Below are positions 1-6,691 of a DNA stretch of 64,000 nt, one piece after another; position 1 is the stretch's first letter, and each line of letters opens with the position of its first letter. The stretch is from Pediococcus acidilactici DSM 20284 (GTDB taxonomy: Bacteria; Bacillota; Bacilli; Lactobacillales; Lactobacillaceae): the NCBI RefSeq assembly GCF_000146325.1, contig NZ_GL397067.1, forward strand, positions 437,747 to 501,746, written 5' to 3'. The translations under genes and the position numbers were made by a program. The notes under the pieces are model-generated. The model was given only the letters and a program-made list of their open reading frames with translations. It did not search any database and had not been told where the DNA came from.

Positions 1-274
1 AAATAATAACCATGCTCAACTAGTAAAGTTACTACAAACAAAAACCAAAAATTCATCATTACATACTTTGCTTAAAACCTTTAATGCCAGAGCTAAATCT
101 ATTATTAACGCTATGCGTTCGCCATTATCCAACGGACGAATCGAAGGAGTTATTCGTAAAATCAAGCAAATTAATCGCACAGCCTACGGCTACCGAAATT
201 GGCAACATCTAAGAGATCGCGTCTTTATTGAATTTTCACTCAAAACTAAAAAAAGGAAACCAATTCGTCGCTAA
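1..274 (+). CDS. ISL3-family transposase, C-terminal part (cut by window edge)
   Basis: The reading frame is open from base 2 to the stop at 274, so about 90 C-terminal residues are visible and the N-terminus lies outside the window. The segment SNGRIEGVIRKIKQINRTAYG followed by YRNWQHLRDR is the typical C-terminal signature of ISL3 (IS1165-like) DDE transposases, which move the element by cut-and-paste and make 8-bp target duplications. A terminal inverted repeat follows at about 299-324. Whether the copy is intact cannot be judged because its left end is not present. Family recognised from memory of the C-terminal motif. Confidence 0.85.
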   Translation, partial: NNNHAQLVKLLQTKTKNSSLHTLLKTFNARAKSIINAMRSPLSNGRIEGVIRKIKQINRTAYGYRNWQHLRDRVFIEFSLKTKKRKPIRR

Positions 275-290
275 ACGAAATGATTTCCTT
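247..290. repeat. Terminator-like hairpin repeat, copy 1 of 3
   Basis: A GGAAACCA / TGATTTCC stem with an inner TCGTC..GACGA-like stem overlaps the last transposase codons. Near-identical sequence occurs at 9441-9482 and 12012-12052. On the minus strand it ends in a run of T, as an intrinsic terminator would; here the run is seven T. Sequence sharing between an IS end and two chromosomal intergenic sites is seen directly; the functional role is inferred. Confidence 0.6.
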
Positions 291-298
291 AACAGCTT

Positions 299-324
299 CT
301 ATCCACACTTGATGACAGAGAGCC
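299..324 (-). repeat. Terminal inverted repeat of the ISL3 element
   Basis: Read on the minus strand this begins GGCTCTCTGTCATCAAGTG, matching the GGCTCT start usual for ISL3-family termini. It lies 25 bases after the transposase stop, as expected for the right end of the element. The bases beyond it, about 337-375 (AAAAGTTAGACC...), may be a scrap of another IS end but are too short to assign. Confidence 0.6.
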
Positions 325-526
325 AAAAATATAGCGATCCTCAAAAGTTAGACCAGGAGTCTAGCTAATGCGAGTTGCCATATAAAATCGTTGTCTTTTA
401 GTTTGTCTAATATTTTAAAAACTATACTCTAATTAAAATAATTCATTATTTAACTGGGGTTGGTTCGGTCCATACCCAGTTAGATATTCGCTTATTAAGC
501 TACCACTTTCCATTTACTTGAATCAA

Positions 527-664
527 TTAATCTTGATGACGAACGCTTTCTTTATTATGAACAATTTCTTCATTATCATTCGAGCCTTCCAAAACAACAA
601 AACTATAAGATATGCATTTTGCTGCGTTACCATCAATTTTGAAAATAAAAATATCAAGATTCAT
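527..664 (-). CDS. Small ORF of unknown function, possibly a truncated gene
   Basis: An ATG at 664 opens a 45-codon frame (MNLDIFIFKIDGNAAK at the start) that ends with TAA at 527. Its ATG overlaps the end of the upstream broken gene (stop 654-656), the arrangement seen for translationally coupled genes. I do not recognise a family. The protein is acidic at its C-terminus and has no clear membrane segment. Beyond its stop come a short hairpin (451-479) and IS debris, so the frame may be the N-terminal stump of a longer protein cut by a mobile element. Confidence 0.4.
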   Translation of the reverse strand: MNLDIFIFKIDGNAAKCISYSFVVLEGSNDNEEIVHNKESVRHQD

Positions 665-1215
665 TATGCAATTTTTCCAACTGAAGTCTAACTTCATTTT
701 TTAATTTACTAAACTCACATTCTGTCATCAAATTATCACGCTTAAATCCCACATATTCTCTAATTCCTTATAAATATTTTTCAGATAATCATATTTTTCA
801 GTATAAATTTTTGAACCATCCACACCCACTTCAAAAGGAGATTCAAAAACAAATGTATTTTGGATCTCCTGGCAAGCATTTAGAAAAATCAATGTATATT
901 CAATAACTCTGATATATTTAAATTGGACTGGGCTATTAATATATGTAATTTCCTTATCTCTAAGATAGGCTAACCCTTCTGCAGGTATCCCTATAGAATT
1001 TATTGTCTGTCTGTATTCTATACTATCAACATACTCTTTTTTATCATATTTTTGAATTTAACATAGTTTATATAGTGCCAATACCAATTAATAATTGGTA
1101 TAAACAAAGCCGTTAAAATAAAGCGCAAACACTTTATAAAAAAATCAATGTTTTCTTTTGTTATTACTTTTGAACTTATTTCTACAACAACTTGAATCAT
1201 ATAATTGGTTTCCAA
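654..1215 (-). pseudogene. Frameshifted gene for a membrane-anchored protein of unknown function
   Basis: The intact frame 1215-1018 gives 65 residues with one hydrophobic segment (about residues 28-48, ending IINWYWHYINYV). At a six-T run (1037-1042; six A on the coding strand) the coding signal moves to another frame and continues for roughly 85 residues (for example EGLAYLRDKEITYINSPVQF). A second shift near 745-770 leads into ..REYVGFKRDNLMTECEFS and a stop at 654-656. Joined, the product would be about 185 residues: one N-terminal membrane segment and a soluble C-terminal part. The start overlaps the end of the upstream 156-residue gene by 19 bases, so this was the second gene of an operon. 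No family recognised. Two shifts make a real pseudogene more likely than a single sequencing error. Confidence 0.6.
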
Positions 1216-1667
1216 TCGTCTGTAAATAACTGTTGAACCGTATTATCTTCTAAATTTATTGGGGATTCTCTTATGTCATCAAGTTCAAAATCTACCCATT
1301 CAATGCAATAAGAAATATCATATTTTTCATTTTCAGGCATTCTATTAATTGCACCGATTAAATAATAATGTTTTGTACTGCTAATAAGATTATCGTCCGT
1401 AACATTACAGACAATACCTACCACTTTTTTTAAGGAATTTGCATAGTCAACAATATACCCTTTGGTTAAAGTTCCAGAAACACCAACTATATTAGCAATT
1501 TCTTTTTCAGATATATATAATTTATCTTTTCCCAATAAGTTACGTTTATTAAACAATTCAATAAATAAACTCAATTGTTTTTTTGCTGTTTCAAGTTCAT
1601 CTATTAAACCATGAACAGTAAAAAAACAATCTTTTGAGTCATTATACATGCTTTGTATATATTTCAT
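1197..1667 (-). CDS. Hypothetical protein, possible helix-turn-helix segment
   Basis: A 156-residue frame with ATG at 1667 preceded by GGAGAG at good spacing. There is no membrane segment or signal peptide. Residues about 51-68 (YISEKEIANIVGVSGTLT) resemble a helix-turn-helix (EIA..VGVS), so DNA binding is possible but not established. The C-terminal third is strongly acidic. It is the first gene of a minus-strand cassette whose next member (654-1215) is broken and whose last small ORF (527-664) abuts mobile-element remnants. AT-rich and unlike the housekeeping genes to the right, it looks acquired. Function unknown. Confidence 0.6.
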   Translation of the reverse strand: MKYIQSMYNDSKDCFFTVHGLIDELETAKKQLSLFIELFNKRNLLGKDKLYISEKEIANIVGVSGTLTKGYIVDYANSLKKVVGIVCNVTDDNLISSTKHYYLIGAINRMPENEKYDISYCIEWVDFELDDIRESPINLEDNTVQQLFTDDWKPII

Positions 1668-2020
1668 AAAATTCTCTCCATAGTTATTACATATTAAATA
1701 ACAAAAACTGACTTAACTAAACAAAAAAATTTCGAGCCAGTTCCGAATATATCTAGGTTTTAACAACAATTTATCAACCATTTTTTCTGATAATAATTAG
1801 ATGTGTTTATAACCGAAAATATGATAAATGAACATTAATTTAACACATGATTCCTTTTAAATAAATGCTTAATAGCCCACACCTCATACAGTAATACTTT
1901 AGGGCGTATACACTTGTTAATTATATGTTTATATTTAAAATGATTCTACTAAGAAAGCACCATATCCATTAATATGCAATATATCCTCAACAAAATTTTA
2001 ACTTTTTATCATGAATTATA
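1668..2020. other. AT-rich intergenic stretch without gene
   Basis: No convincing ORF, repeat or strong terminator was found here. It separates the unknown cassette (starts at 1667) from the stop of the HEPN-like gene at 2021, both on the minus strand. The first gene's promoter should lie here, but no clear -35/-10 pair stands out in such AT-rich sequence. Confidence 0.5.
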
Positions 2021-3436
2021 TTACCTGTTAATTAAATCTGAAAATGTAGTGGCACTTATTTTTTTTGCAAAAGAAATATTTGAGTTGTTTTTCAAGTAAT
2101 TCAATATTTCTTTTGCTCTATCATTTAAAGTCGAACTATCAATGACACTTAATAATTCACCAAAATTTTTATTGGTATTATTGCTATCTAGTTCATTAAT
2201 GACAATTGGATCTTTTAAGATAAAAAACAGTTTCATTATTTGTGCACCGCTTAATAGTTTGAAAAATTCATCATAATAACTAATTGCACTTGGTGAAACA
2301 CCGCCACAATATTCAACGTGACTTTTCCCAATTCTGCAAAGTAAAATATTCCTAATTAAGTTTTCTTCTCGTCCTAAAGGTATATCTTCCGATGTTTTAA
2401 TATACTTCATAATATTTCTAATAATTGGAGTTTCAAATTTGAAATTATCCCATCCATTATGAGCATTCATTAAATCATCTGATAAAATTGTAAGCTCTAA
2501 ACTTTTCCTGGAATCAGGTTTGAATCTAAATCCGTCACATTTCTCAAAGAAAGTTTCAGCAAGCGCTTTCTTCTCTTCTTCAAGATTCACTATAAATCCT
2601 TCCAATTTAACTCCTAAATCATATTTATACTCTTCCTTTGCCGCACACCAAATAGCAGGGGCAATAGCCAAAATATTTTCTTTAACGACTTTTTCTATTT
2701 TTACGTCAGTGAACATTCCAAAAATAGTTTTTAATATATTGCCGCATAACATTGATGAGAGATTATTGATTGATTCTTTTATTGTTACAATATCACTTTG
2801 TATAAACGATGACTTTTTTGCTCGCAGGTTAGAAATGAATTTTTTAACTTCAAGTGCTCCAGCAGATGGTTCTACGGATATAACCTCTACAGTACAAGTT
2901 TGTAACCATCCTAGTAATTCAAATGGTTGAATCTGTCCATTATTTGGATGTGCACTACTTATATTGTTACGCATATTTAAAATATGAACCAGTTTCTGGT
3001 AAACAATATCTGTTATTATTTCTAATTTTACGCATGTATCTAATAAAACTCGATCTTTTATATTTTTAAGGTCATTTTCATCATTATACTGGTCTCTAAG
3101 GTTATCACCTATAGCTGAATCAAAAAAAATATCAATACCGTATAAGCATATCTTATTATGTAAGTTAGTAACCACTTCATTCCATAAATCATTTAAGGCC
3201 GAATCAAACCTTCCAATTGCAACACTCGAAATAAATTTTGATAAATAATTAGCTTTATTTCTAACTTCAGGGGGAATACGCTCAATAATTGTTGGTAGAC
3301 TTACTGAAATCTGATTCCGTTCATCTCTAGATGCCAAAATCCTTTCGGCAGGTAATCCCAAATTTTTTAGATAATTTTCAAAATCACTATTTGCTACTAA
3401 AGACATCTCAGATTTTTCACCTGAATTATTTTGCAT
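2021..3436 (-). CDS. HEPN-like domain protein, putative defence/abortive-infection factor
   Basis: A 471-residue soluble protein with no signal peptide or membrane segments. Residues 156-163 read RNNISSAH, preceded by a helix (YQKLVHILNM). This fits the R-polar-X4-6-H signature of HEPN ribonuclease domains, common in toxins and abortive-infection proteins. The likely HEPN region is about residues 75-185; the C-terminal 280 residues are mostly helical and unrecognised. It stands alone between the ISL3/cassette region and a type I toxin module, in AT-rich island DNA. Start: ATG at 3436 with GGAGA about 11 bases upstream; an internal Met at 11 is an alternative. What is seen is the motif; RNase activity and defence role are inference. 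Confidence 0.5.
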   Translation of the reverse strand: MQNNSGEKSEMSLVANSDFENYLKNLGLPAERILASRDERNQISVSLPTIIERIPPEVRNKANYLSKFISSVAIGRFDSALNDLWNEVVTNLHNKICLYGIDIFFDSAIGDNLRDQYNDENDLKNIKDRVLLDTCVKLEIITDIVYQKLVHILNMRNNISSAHPNNGQIQPFELLGWLQTCTVEVISVEPSAGALEVKKFISNLRAKKSSFIQSDIVTIKESINNLSSMLCGNILKTIFGMFTDVKIEKVVKENILAIAPAIWCAAKEEYKYDLGVKLEGFIVNLEEEKKALAETFFEKCDGFRFKPDSRKSLELTILSDDLMNAHNGWDNFKFETPIIRNIMKYIKTSEDIPLGREENLIRNILLCRIGKSHVEYCGGVSPSAISYYDEFFKLLSGAQIMKLFFILKDPIVINELDSNNTNKNFGELLSVIDSSTLNDRAKEILNYLKNNSNISFAKKISATTFSDLINR

Positions 3437-3723
3437 TTTACCATCGTCTCCAATCTTATTTGTACAATAACCTATAATTACATTCTAATCATATCAAATA
3501 TGTTTTATAATTTTCACAAAATTATCTTATATAAATCTAAATTTCGTCTATCATATAATAATATTGGTAATCATAAGATTAACATCCTATTTCCACGATC
3601 CACGTTTTATTCGGTGATATACATTTGCAATACTAAGGCACCATAAACGATATAATTACCAAACCTATTATAATATATACGTTCAATTTCAAATCCCTCG
3701 CATTAATTTTCCTAGTTTAGTGT

Positions 3724-3815
3724 TATAATATTCTGTATAAAAAGAGGGCGGTTGCAGCGCCCTCCCTACGTTCTATGCTTTTGAGTTGGGCTAACCTTGA
3801 TGGTTAGTCTTTTTT
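3724..3815 (+). ncRNA. Antisense antitoxin RNA of a type I toxin-antitoxin module (putative)
   Basis: A perfect TATAAT at 3724-3729 predicts a start near 3736; the -35 is weak. The predicted RNA of about 80 nt ends at an intrinsic terminator, GGCTAACC..GGTTAGTC (3789-3809) followed by six T. It is fully antisense to the 3' end of the toxin mRNA on the minus strand, including the toxin stop codon, and contains the toxin terminator's hairpin near its 5' end. Convergent 3'-overlapping RNAs with two opposed terminators are the layout of txpA/ratA-type modules. No expression data. Confidence 0.5.
3738..3764 (-). terminator. Intrinsic terminator of the toxin mRNA
   Basis: A perfect 7-bp stem GAGGGCG / CGCCCTC with a 7-base loop, followed on the minus strand by TTTTT. 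It lies within the predicted antisense RNA, so the same bases form part of the antitoxin's 5' structure. Confidence 0.7.
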
Positions 3816-3889
3816 AGTATCTCACAAACCTTAGCCAAATTTAACACTGCTATGGATAAACCTATCAGATTCAACACAAAAGAATCCAA
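3791..3889 (-). CDS. Small hydrophobic toxin, TxpA/holin-like type I toxin (putative)
   Basis: A 32-residue frame: a short N-terminus, a hydrophobic stretch (about residues 4-20, VLNLIGLSIAVLNLAKV) and a lysine-bearing tail ending KKTNHQG. Starts at TTG 3889 with AGAGG about 7 bases upstream. A possible promoter is TTGTTT (3947-3952) and TATTAA (3924-3929) with 17-bp spacing. The mRNA would end at a strong minus-strand terminator, GAGGGCG/CGCCCTC (3744-3764) then five T. Size, single membrane helix and basic tail match the small holin-like toxins of Firmicutes type I modules. The TTG start means a decayed copy cannot be excluded. Confidence 0.5.
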   Translation of the reverse strand: MDSFVLNLIGLSIAVLNLAKVCEILKKTNHQG

Positions 3890-4055
3890 CTTTCAGCCTC
3901 TATGAATTATTTAATAACTTCACTTAATATCTTAAGCCTTACGTCGAAACAACTCTTAATCTCTCCCAATAATAAATCAAATCATTTTTAATCCTCATTT
4001 AACTAGGATATCCTTGTAATACATAGTAAAGCTATCTTAAAAGAAGGCGGAATTG

Positions 4056-4426
4056 ATGCGACTTTGGCACGAAGATTTGATTGAAAAACTCCCCCGAGCT
4101 CAACTCCTAGATCAACATCGAGAAATTACAGCATTACGTGGTAAAGGTTGGGGTAAAAAACATGCAACCGTTGACTATGTTTTCCCACACTCGCCATATA
4201 AATTATATCAATTTCATATGTTAGTCATGTAGTCATGAACGAAATGAAAAGACGTGGTTATCAACCAAACCTGAACTGGTTCAACCCAACCTACCGCGGA
4301 TTAAACTGCCCACCTTATCTAAGTTTACCAACTTGCCCATTAACTCACCCAATTTATCCTGAACATGATTTTGATTATTTGGCAGAGCGTCTAACCAATT
4401 TGCGTGCAAAAGATATTGATATTTAA
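4056..4426 (+). pseudogene. Pyrimidine-dimer DNA glycosylase (TIGR02328-like), broken by an 8-bp duplication
   Basis: ATG 4056 starts MRLWHEDLIEKLPRAQLL, nearly the same as the intact gene at 45124-45492. The frame stops at TAG 4230 after 58 residues. TAGTCATG is present twice in tandem (4222-4229 and 4230-4237); removing one copy restores the frame through NEMKRRGYQPNLNW to the normal end at 4426. The rest of the gene is undamaged, so the break is recent. The family is annotated as T4 endonuclease V-like pyrimidine-dimer glycosylase that starts repair of UV lesions. RBS: AAGGCGG upstream of the ATG. ISL3 elements make 8-bp target duplications, so the repeat could be an excision footprint (inference). 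Confidence 0.85.
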
Positions 4427-4463
4427 ATTCTAAATTTTAGTCAATTACGCATAATGCTTTTGT

Positions 4464-4765
4464 TTATTCTCTATCAAGTTTGACAATTAATCGTATTGTA
4501 TTTTGAACTTCTTCTATTAAATCTGTAGGTAGTCGCTCCTCAAATTGCCAATTTCTGTGGACATAATCAAAAGACTTTAATTGTTCAATATAAATGGTCC
4601 CCTCTACCTTAGTTCTCTTATCCAAATGAACATGCAGTGGATAATCTTTTCCATTGAATTTCCCATGTGATATAGGTACCACCCATACAAAGGGAAAAGT
4701 AGCCATTAACTGGTTATTACTAACAATTGGTCTTTTTTATAAAAAAGCAAAATTGGTATATACCT
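4464..4765 (-). pseudogene. mazF/pemK-like mRNA interferase toxin, remnant
   Basis: The frame 4706-4464 gives 80 residues ending NTIRLIVKLDRE, with FVWVVPISHG and HVHLDKRT, the core and C-terminal part of MazF/PemK endoribonucleases. Translating past the ATG gives KRPIVSNNQLM, the normal MazF interior, but a stop lies just upstream at about 4733-4735. Further upstream, YTNFA-like coding is visible in the same frame but separated by stops. A full toxin is about 110 residues, so the N-terminus is destroyed. No mazE-like antitoxin gene is seen upstream. Probably inactive. Confidence 0.7.
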
Positions 4766-4937
4766 ATAATCGACTTTTGAAAGCGCCGTTTTGATAAAAA
4801 ATTACATATTTGAATTTACCGTGGTCTAAAGGGCTAAATTTTTTTAAAAAAATATTGGTTACAACCTCCGTAGACCGCTTTTTTGGACAGCAACTAAATC
4901 TTCGTATCGCTACTCTCTATCTATTGTTTGCTCAATA

Positions 4938-5060
4938 TCAACTATTTCCAGTAGCCCATTGCACATTCACTGCCCTTATTTCTGGCTTTCCGCCCGCTCG
5001 ATTAAAGGCCTGTTCCATATTTTCTGTTATCAGTACCACAAATATTACCGGTACTTTTCC
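4938..5060 (-). pseudogene. ribH: ribH (lumazine synthase) C-terminal remnant
   Basis: A 40-residue open stretch without start codon reads GKVPVIFVVLITENMEQAF then NRAGGKPEIRAVNVQW. It aligns well with the C-terminal lumazine synthase motif ([21 protein letters not shown].K). A stop lies immediately upstream in frame; the preceding DNA still resembles the CNEVSKG region in another frame. No other riboflavin gene is visible nearby. A dead relic. Recognition rests on about 20 matching residues. Confidence 0.55.
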
Positions 5061-5227
5061 TTATTTGTATTTATATTCGTTACATTTACCAACCGAATTA
5101 GTCTAGCATTGTTTAGGAAATGTAAATGAACAACTTAAATGTAAAGTTGGGCAGTGCCTACAAATATTTGTCCATTATGGCTAGAAATCATTCTAAAATT
5201 TAATTTACTATTCGAAATAACACTAAA

Positions 5228-5253
5228 TAAAAAAGCCCTATATAAAGGGCTTC
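5228..5253 (-). terminator. Intrinsic terminator after nox
   Basis: On the minus strand AAGCCCT (ttatat) AGGGCTT is followed by TTTTATTT, 68 bases past the nox stop. Confidence 0.8.
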
Positions 5254-5320
5254 CTGCTAATTAGACTTACTATTTTATCCTTTTTAAAAGCACTAATATA
5301 ATCGGAGAAACAACCTATCT

Positions 5321-6691
5321 TTAGAAACGTGCATAACCTAAAGCATGTTGCGCAGCCAAATTAATTAAACTCCATTGCCGGTCGTAACCAGGTTGGAAGA
5401 AGAAGTCAGCTTCGGCTAAATCTTCAAGCGTCAAACGATGCTCTACCGCTAATGCCAAAACATTTCCTTGAGCAGTCAAATCGCATGTTGAAAGGACTGC
5501 TCCACCTAAAACAATGTGGGTATGGGGGTCAAACGTGATATCAACATCCACGCGAACATTTCCCTCTGACTCGGGAACGTATGCCGGTCGGATGTGGTCA
5601 ACATAGTGTGAATTAACAATTTCAACATTGGAGCGTTCTGCAGTAAACTCATTTACACCCGTAGAAGCAAAGTGTTCGTCAAATACATGTAGCGCTGATG
5701 AACCAACTACGCCTTTAAAGATTTGGGTTGGTTTCTTCTCGAAAATATGATTTACAACGTATTGGGCTTCACGCCGGGCAGTTGTAGCTAAAGCAATTGG
5801 AGATGGCTTTCCAGCCGGGATAGATAGCGGTAAGATAGCATCTCCGACAGCAAATACGTCGGGCACGTTAGTTCTCAAGTAGCCATCCACATTGATGAAT
5901 CCGCGATCAGTTAGATCCACTACGCCTTCGAGCCATTCTGTATTAGGTTGTACACCGGCAGCTTGAATTACAAGATCTGCAGGGTAACTGCCCTTTTTGG
6001 TTTCCACACTGGCAACTTTTCCGTCGCCCTTAAATGCGGTAATGCTCTGGCTCATTTCTACTTGAACACCGTTGTCAGTCAAGGTTTTATCAATAATTTC
6101 AGTCATTTCAGGGTTGAGATAATTGCCGAGGGGGCGATCGATGAAATCAAATAAAGTGACGTGTTTACCTTTCTTAGCAAATACCTCAGCCGCTTCAATC
6201 CCGATGTATCCTGAACCAACCACCGCGACATTTTTAATACTATCATCAGTTAACGCTGCCTTAATCTTTGTAGCCCAGTCGTAACCACGCATTAAATATA
6301 CATTTTCAAGGTCTGTACCTGGGACTGGCAAATTTTTAGGTGTTACTCCCGAACTAAGAATCAATTTATCGTAAGCAACTTGTTCTTCTGTACCTTCTTT
6401 TAAATCCTTAACGGTTACCTGTTTTTGGTCAACATCAATTGCTGTAACTTGGTGATTGTTATAAATCTTTCCGCCTTTGGAAGTGATGTCTTCTGGTCGG
6501 AAATTCCTTACGTCATTAACATCTGTAACTTGGTCTTCTAAGTAAAGTTGCATCCCACAGGACATGAACGATACGAAATCGCCCATTTCATAAATCGTAA
6601 CATCAACGTTATCGTATTTATCCAACAATTCAATTGCTGACTCATGTCCGCCATGTGAAGCCCCAACAATAATAACTTTTGCTTTATCCAT
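5321..6691 (-). CDS. nox: NADH oxidase (water-forming), Nox
   Basis: A 456-residue flavoprotein of the CoA-disulfide reductase / NADH peroxidase / NADH oxidase family. It reduces O2 to water with NADH and so regenerates NAD in the cytosol. Visible: N-terminal FAD fold (VIIVGASHGGHESA, 6-19), redox-active cysteine in SFMSCGMQLY (Cys45), NAD fold (VAVVGSGYIGIEAAE, 155-169), second FAD contact VFAVGDA (279-285), and a full C-terminal dimerisation domain. Length is normal. Start ATG 6691 follows GGGGGAT. Single gene with its own terminator at 5228-5253. NADH peroxidase or CoA-disulfide reductase are close alternatives; Nox is favoured by overall likeness to lactobacillar oxidases. Confidence 0.9.
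   Translation of the reverse strand: MDKAKVIIVGASHGGHESAIELLDKYDNVDVTIYEMGDFVSFMSCGMQLYLEDQVTDVNDVRNFRPEDITSKGGKIYNNHQVTAIDVDQKQVTVKDLKEGTEEQVAYDKLILSSGVTPKNLPVPGTDLENVYLMRGYDWATKIKAALTDDSIKNVAVVGSGYIGIEAAEVFAKKGKHVTLFDFIDRPLGNYLNPEMTEIIDKTLTDNGVQVEMSQSITAFKGDGKVASVETKKGSYPADLVIQAAGVQPNTEWLEGVVDLTDRGFINVDGYLRTNVPDVFAVGDAILPLSIPAGKPSPIALATTARREAQYVVNHIFEKKPTQIFKGVVGSSALHVFDEHFASTGVNEFTAERSNVEIVNSHYVDHIRPAYVPESEGNVRVDVDITFDPHTHIVLGGAVLSTCDLTAQGNVLALAVEHRLTLEDLAEADFFFQPGYDRQWSLINLAAQHALGYARF

Follow-up and report, generated by a model that had tools for sequence, protein, structure and literature searches.

A stand-alone HEPN-fold protein with a helical-repeat half in a decayed island of Pediococcus acidilactici: a predicted RNase with a proposed role in phage defence

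Introduction

What does an isolated gene whose product carries a HEPN-like motif do in a decayed genomic island? The question is raised by one gene in the 64,000-nucleotide stretch of Pediococcus acidilactici DSM 20284 analysed here (contig NZ_GL397067.1, positions 437,747 to 501,746; hereafter the window). A sequence-only reading had noticed RNNISSAH in a 471-residue protein and proposed a single-gene defence factor. The HEPN superfamily, as defined in the part of PMC3710099 that we cite, is a four-helix bundle with an insert between helices 2 and 3, whose active site has a polar residue right after the arginine and, when present, an acidic residue in helix 2. In this work we examine the gene, the fold and conservation of its product, and the company its relatives keep.

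Results

The open reading frame is present with all 471 residues and lies on the minus strand, which the earlier reading had omitted; it begins with ATG, contains no internal stop and encodes a protein as long as most of its relatives (Table 1). The gene is intact. Its GC content is 29.7%, as opposed to 39.5% for the whole window, and scans for consensus promoters and terminators gave no excess over shuffles.

Table 1. Positions of the gene, its parts and its neighbours in the window
Feature	Position	Strand	Remarks
HEPN and helical-repeat protein gene	2021..3436	-	471 aa; residue i starts at 3436-3*(i-1)
GGAG, ribosome-binding-site-like	3448..3451	-	ATG 11 bases further on
HEPN domain, residues 55-191	2864..3274	-	Model of residues 34-191, structural matches, conservation
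W85-N86-E87 in helix 77-99	3176..3184	-	E87 is the candidate for the acidic residue conserved in HEPN helix 2; conservation
RNNISSAH, residues 156-163	2948..2971	-	Predicted RNase site (R156, N157, H163); conservation; placement as described in the cited part of PMC3710099
All-helical superhelix, residues 192-471	2024..2863	-	Proposed control half; models and conservation
ISL3 transposase remnant, C-terminal piece	68..274	+	Confirmed in the window
PemK/MazF toxin remnant	4464..4706	-	80 aa; confirmed
Broken TIGR02328-family gene, two ORFs	4053..4426	+	4235-4423 matched; 4053-4232 by eye
Intact 156-aa ORF, downstream of the HEPN gene	1197-1667	-	Weak family matches

The motif is where the sequence-only reading had put it. 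Taken by itself it is weak evidence, since the pattern R.{4,6}H arises in 43% of 5,000 shuffled copies of the protein (the stricter RN.{3,5}H in 5.5%), and on that ground we rejected it as sole proof of a HEPN domain; a second R-x4-H is found in the same protein at 368. What settles the HEPN case for the motif is that the family conserves it. A family profile built from 11 proteins was run on a species-genome collection: of the 194 stretches that matched the pattern, 187 encoded relatives, and of these the best 80 were kept while the less similar 107 stayed unseen. Together with plasmid and viral-collection relatives, and after dereplication at 80% identity, these gave 84 sequences (60 from genomes, 10 from plasmids, 13 from the viral collection and the window protein itself). 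R156, N157 and H163 are each present in 83 of them, as is P164, so the conservation of R156 and H163 in homologues, on which the original proposal depended, is borne out. The three residues are kept in all 80 genome loci (the best 80 of 187), which were not selected on the motif since the pattern of that scan lacks it, and in 10 of the 11 plasmid loci examined; the 13 viral-collection sequences give no independent evidence on this point, one of the two patterns used in that scan containing RN..HP. Further upstream in the protein, W85 is found in 84 of the 84 sequences and E87 in 80.

The one exception to the motif is a divergent Agrobacterium relative of 17% identity (L011:5881-7209), which lacks RN...H yet retains, in its C-terminal half, the stretch NFYNEP. 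Near it lie a nucleotidyltransferase gene and a patatin-like phospholipase gene, a combination that may recall CBASS.

An AlphaFold2 model of the whole protein, made with 74 sequences, is all-helical (pLDDT 92.8, pTM 0.84). Structure searches with it matched residues 190-471 to PUF, HEAT and ARM superhelices (best Z 9.2); with Foldseek, neither the PDB nor a viral library yielded a match at E<=0.001. As such repeats filled the PDB rows of the whole-model search, the N-terminal domain was modelled separately. The resulting model of residues 34-191 (pLDDT 91.4, pTM 0.87) is a four-helix bundle with an insert between helices 2 and 3, in which R156 lies in the last turns of helix 143-161 and H163 in the loop beyond the helix end, this loop and the residues following it being the less confident part of the models (pLDDT blocks 71-79 over both models, 75-79 around the loop in that of residues 34-191). 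When the model was compared with solved structures by VIA-align, ranks 1 to 23 were all HEPN-superfamily entries and the first entry of another kind came at rank 24, with Z 7.0. Among the former were 2jpu (Z 10.7, rmsd 3.4, 119 aligned), 2hsb (Z 10.1, rmsd 3.3, 111 aligned), HepT 7bxo (Z 9.4, rmsd 3.7, 114 aligned), Csm6' 8pe3 (Z 9.1, rmsd 3.6, 117 aligned) and AbiA 8oz7 (Z 8.6, rmsd 3.5, 112 aligned), the kinds represented being archaeal and Thermus HEPN proteins, HepT toxins, Csm6, AbiA, human sacsin, MtlR and nucleotidyltransferase-associated proteins. These entries are counted as HEPN proteins on the strength of their titles, of PMC3710099 or of general background.

The best of these scores, Z 10.7, falls short of the 13 which, by the tool's own note, chance alone can give for helical bundles, and Foldseek with the HEPN-domain model gave no match at E<=0.001 (best E 0.21). 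Absolute scores being moderate, membership in the superfamily rests on the uniformity of the match list and on the conserved site. Neither the protein nor the family profile had a match at E<=1 in sequence searches of solved structures; three matches to the HEPN-domain profile, at E 0.7-1.9, were taken as chance. Pfam searches with the HEPN domain of 74 members gave weak matches to Abi_C, which we take to be HEPN-like, in six (best E 0.15) and to DUF4145 in four (best E 0.021); with the full proteins DUF4145 was again matched weakly in 4 of the 74 (best E 0.004).

The HEPN fold of the N-terminal half is thus well supported by the models, as the sequence-only reading had anticipated, with the difference that the bundle spans about residues 55 to 191 rather than 75-185. 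Residues 55-191 are also the most conserved part of the protein, holding 21 positions conserved at >=95% versus nine in residues 192-471 (83 sequences, the Agrobacterium relative left out). As modelled, R156, the polar N157 that follows it, H163, and E87 within helix 77-99 are arranged in a way that fits the HEPN RNase site described in the cited part of PMC3710099, and RNase activity, predicted from the fold and the conserved site, is likely.

The C-terminal half carries its own conserved residues: all 84 dereplicated sequences have N331 and E335, and L322, G379 and Y388 are each present in 83. A HEAT/ARM-like superhelix is a common arrangement and reveals no function; the conservation of these five residues suggests a shared surface that may serve for docking, for binding a ligand or for autoinhibition.

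The earlier statement that the protein belongs to no recognised family stands for Pfam and PADLOC (2023), where it has no match at E<=1, and for NCBIfam, where its one match, E 0.19, is far below the cut-off; it does not stand for PHROGs v4, where PHROG 27609, annotated 'unknown function', matches residues 39-450 at E 3.6e-91. Among 74 members PADLOC gave weak matches to 12 families, in one or two members each (best E 3.6e-4). Of the 50 matches to the plasmid relative in E. coli, the 15 that were listed carry the annotation 'hypothetical protein'. No description of the family was found in open-licence PMC main texts, and a report in a supplement or elsewhere is possible.

The surroundings of the gene in the window are those of a ruin. 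A low-GC stretch, 25-33% in 1-kb windows, runs from position 1 to 4,500, and the ISL3 and mazF remnants that had been noticed near the gene are indeed there (Table 1), as is a broken TIGR02328-family gene. The region upstream of the window, judged by eye from its ORFs, holds housekeeping genes and, at L124:10672-11292, the transposase's N-terminal piece. For the type I toxin remnant that had also been claimed, Rfam gave no match in window positions 1-5400; a 76-base stretch at 3740-3815, which contains a GC-rich, hairpin-like repeat and matches at 84% an unannotated place on one Pediococcus plasmid, is possibly what was meant. The gene was probably acquired, and now lies in a decayed mobile island.

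With its recognisable neighbours reduced to remnants, the window copy might itself be a decaying, non-functional passenger of the island. Its long end branch of 0.8 in the tree is compatible with this, as are its R76, S79 and H93 (3158-3211), at positions where L, A and R are near-universal among the relatives. The frame is nonetheless open over its full length with the catalytic set intact, and these departures amount to 3 of 45 conserved columns, against a family median of 1. Moreover, the sister protein from Streptococcus varani (L039) has R76 and S79 in common with it, though not H93, so these two look like features of the lineage. We regard decay of this copy as quite unlikely.

Could the gene be half of a toxin-antitoxin pair, with the antitoxin encoded by the 156-aa ORF or by another gene? 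That ORF is the next one downstream on the same strand, HEPN toxins are often paired with nucleotidyltransferases (PMC3710099, in the part cited), and the ORF weakly matches positions 193-253 of the 265 of an NCBIfam aminoglycoside nucleotidyltransferase model (E 0.0088). The match, however, scores 15 bits against a cut-off of 550, while those in Pfam, PADLOC and PHROG are at chance level; 353 bases separate the ORF from the HEPN gene; and the ORF has no plasmid match, whereas 76 of 72,556 plasmid records contain a relative of the HEPN protein (tblastn). As an operon partner the ORF was rejected, nothing beyond the one partial NCBIfam match speaking for it. Nor did BLAST clustering of the ORFs of >=70 aa in 83 loci reveal a recurrent partner gene, although small or diverged antitoxins could escape such clustering: the commonest neighbour clusters occur in six of the 83 loci each and include annotated recombinases or integrases. 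Of 60 loci, 37 have an upstream neighbour that reads in the same direction as the gene and 34 such a downstream neighbour; the distance is within 60 bases in eight and nine, respectively. A paired toxin is accordingly a very unlikely reading of the gene.

Some relatives adjoin genes for Shedu SduA, HmaC, an HmaA-like helicase, Old or a type IIG restriction enzyme. Whether defence genes are in excess there was assessed on the 110 nearest neighbours of >=120 aa from 60 dereplicated genome loci, of which 108 were scanned (the two longest, of more than 1,500 aa, were left out), against 99 genes at a distance of 14-40 kb from recA, drawn from 25 out of 30 genomes with such loci, some of them outside the case set. 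At E<=1e-15, 181 PADLOC models matched in the case set versus 10 in the control, a count inflated by proteins that match many models (24 for one at L046, 33 for one at L070). Counted as proteins at E<=1e-50, a line picked after the results were known, defence genes make up at least 8 of the 108 neighbours (five traced proteins, with REase_II, PtuB and a methyltransferase counted as three) versus 2 of the 99 controls (p 0.067); admitting a match at 1.4e-49 raises the controls to 3 of 99 (p 0.14), and with the fewest proteins that the data allow, six, p is 0.17-0.29. The excess of defence genes beside relatives is therefore suggestive and not statistically firm (p 0.067-0.29). No PADLOC match at 1e-15 was obtained for 15 of 20 neighbours scanned singly, and in the first 25 of 86 Pfam families matched by the 108 neighbours there are many ordinary genes (Hsp70, LpxB, transporters).

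Two loci show individual arrangements. In a Pelotomaculum bin (L025:4517-9404) the HEPN gene starts 13 bases past an HmaC-type ATPase gene or, with an earlier start, overlaps it by 11, and resembles part of that defence operon. On a Sinorhizobium plasmid (L004:2605-10409) AbiEi/AbiEii-like ORFs and a PHP/ATPase pair lie near the relative, by eye from translations.

The distribution of the family is patchy and wide. The window genome is the sole match among 397 genomes of its taxonomic family; matches are found in 4 of 398 genomes of its class and 4 of 398 of its phylum, its own included in both counts and one of the latter weak and broken by a stop. Relatives among the best 80 of the 187 stretches come from many bacterial phyla, chromosomal-size contigs included, and from one archaeal bin. 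A tree of 61 proteins in 15 groups requires 20 group changes, the minimum possible being 14, and in it the window and S. varani proteins are long-branched sisters (support 98/92). Scanning the viral collection with the single protein found no relative, while the profile found 27 loci; tblastn found no match in the 50,697 INPHARED phage records.

Such patchiness and the mobile context described below are unlike those of a housekeeping gene. They stand against a non-defence HEPN protein acting in RNA processing or regulation, like MtlR or Las1, even if a HEAT/PUF-like half could, judging by the models, bind RNA or ribosomes and MtlR is among the fold matches. In addition, 60% of MtlR proteins have the motif according to the cited part of PMC3710099, as against its conservation in the present family. 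We hold such a non-defence role to be highly improbable.

Of the 76 matching plasmid records 48 are typed conjugative. In E. coli a close copy of the plasmid relative occurs in 50 of 5,426 complete genomes, at 30 chromosomal and 20 plasmid places, and at each of the six places examined in E. coli, Shigella and Klebsiella it is accompanied by a BCCT transporter gene and a DUF2254 gene, the settings being IncF plasmids, the vicinity of phage-type genes and the inside of a prophage. At one enterobacterial place an integrase gene and drt3a/drt3b adjoin the relative, together with P4-type genes. The company of BCCT transporter and DUF2254 was seen at L191:5046-15373 (E. coli TCM_B_2) and also at L182 and L193.

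This residence on conjugative plasmids, beside P4-type genes and amid prophage genes might mean that the RNase guards mobile elements, through plasmid or prophage exclusion or through addiction, and is no broad anti-phage system. Relatives nevertheless sit on chromosomal-size contigs in many phyla too, and addiction would need an antitoxin partner, such as the 83 loci did not yield. Exclusion and defence are compatible with each other. A role limited to guarding mobile elements is, in our judgement, unlikely.

Discussion

The interpretation that we favour, and consider likely, is that the gene encodes an endoribonuclease of the HEPN kind that stands alone, contains its own control half and would act by abortive infection. 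According to it, the bundle computed for residues 55-191 would carry, in R156, N157 and H163, probably aided by E87, a metal-independent site for cutting RNA, the site being computed and its catalysis predicted from it. The superhelix of residues 192-471, with its invariant and near-invariant residues, would form a conserved docking, ligand or autoinhibitory site. In a healthy cell the protein probably keeps itself off, since no antitoxin gene was found alongside. A phage product, or a change caused by infection, would then be sensed through the C-terminal half, upon which the active enzyme would cut host and/or phage RNA and the cell would halt before phage release. The HEPN part of the defence factor originally proposed has therefore held; its role in phage defence we infer from the context, namely the absence of a partner, the residence on mobile elements and the defence genes beside some relatives.

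A more ambitious version is tentative, and we would give it somewhat less than even credence: the family may consist of hitherto undescribed single-gene immune receptors spanning phyla, in which the superhelix, through a site with the invariant N331/E335 and the near-invariant G379/Y388, senses a conserved phage product or a molecule made in infection and directly frees the HEPN RNase, the whole travelling as cargo of plasmids, prophages and satellites. If so, conjugative plasmids would be carrying a defence RNase found in many phyla, of which the E. coli relative, WP_001460374, is amenable to work in standard strains and with the phage collections that exist. Such proteins would also allow a clean test of what holds a lone HEPN enzyme in check, and of what triggers it, when there is no antitoxin. 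In either version a one-gene phage-defence RNase would have been left unnamed by the libraries searched.

Among the systems found in the literature, BxaP of Akkermansia has the most similar architecture, as compared by description (PMC10799925). In the part of that report cited here it is a single protein with an N-terminal DUF4145, predicted to belong to the HEPN superfamily, and a weak HEAT-like C-terminal match, which is located within BREX and restriction loci and protects E. coli against T4, likely by abortive infection. The models give the window protein a HEPN fold and a HEAT/ARM-like part, and DUF4145 is matched weakly here and strongly, in HHpred, by BxaP. BxaP and the window family are probably not one family at the BLAST level, since few nr homologues are reported for the former in the text cited (PMC10799925) as opposed to 187 stretches in one scan for the latter.

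PD-T7-3 is an anti-phage system listed under HEPN in the part cited of PMC10952713 (see also PMC9519451), and is called a single-protein system structurally similar to BxaP in that of PMC10799925. No model so named was among the 12 weak PADLOC matches of 74 members, a library that may hold none.

Tha, from S. aureus prophages, is described in the cited part of PMC11087260 as a HEPN-containing RNase with an Rx4H site that is activated by proteins of the incoming phage. It has 301 aa, its HEPN domain is C-terminal (184-296) and preceded by no known fold, and it is accompanied by the ith gene, whereas the HEPN domain of the window protein is N-terminal, at residues 55-191 of 471. DS-11, found with DefensePredictor, likewise unites a regulatory domain and a HEPN RNase in one protein, the regulatory part consisting of CBS domains instead of a superhelix, and four further validated DefensePredictor systems have HEPN domains (PMC13092281, in the part cited); one of these four could be the window family.

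The protein belongs to a real and broad family of a kind already known, HEPN single-gene defence; by analogy with what is described of them in the texts cited, Tha and DS-11 (PMC11087260, PMC13092281) would follow the same logic as the window protein, with other regulatory parts.
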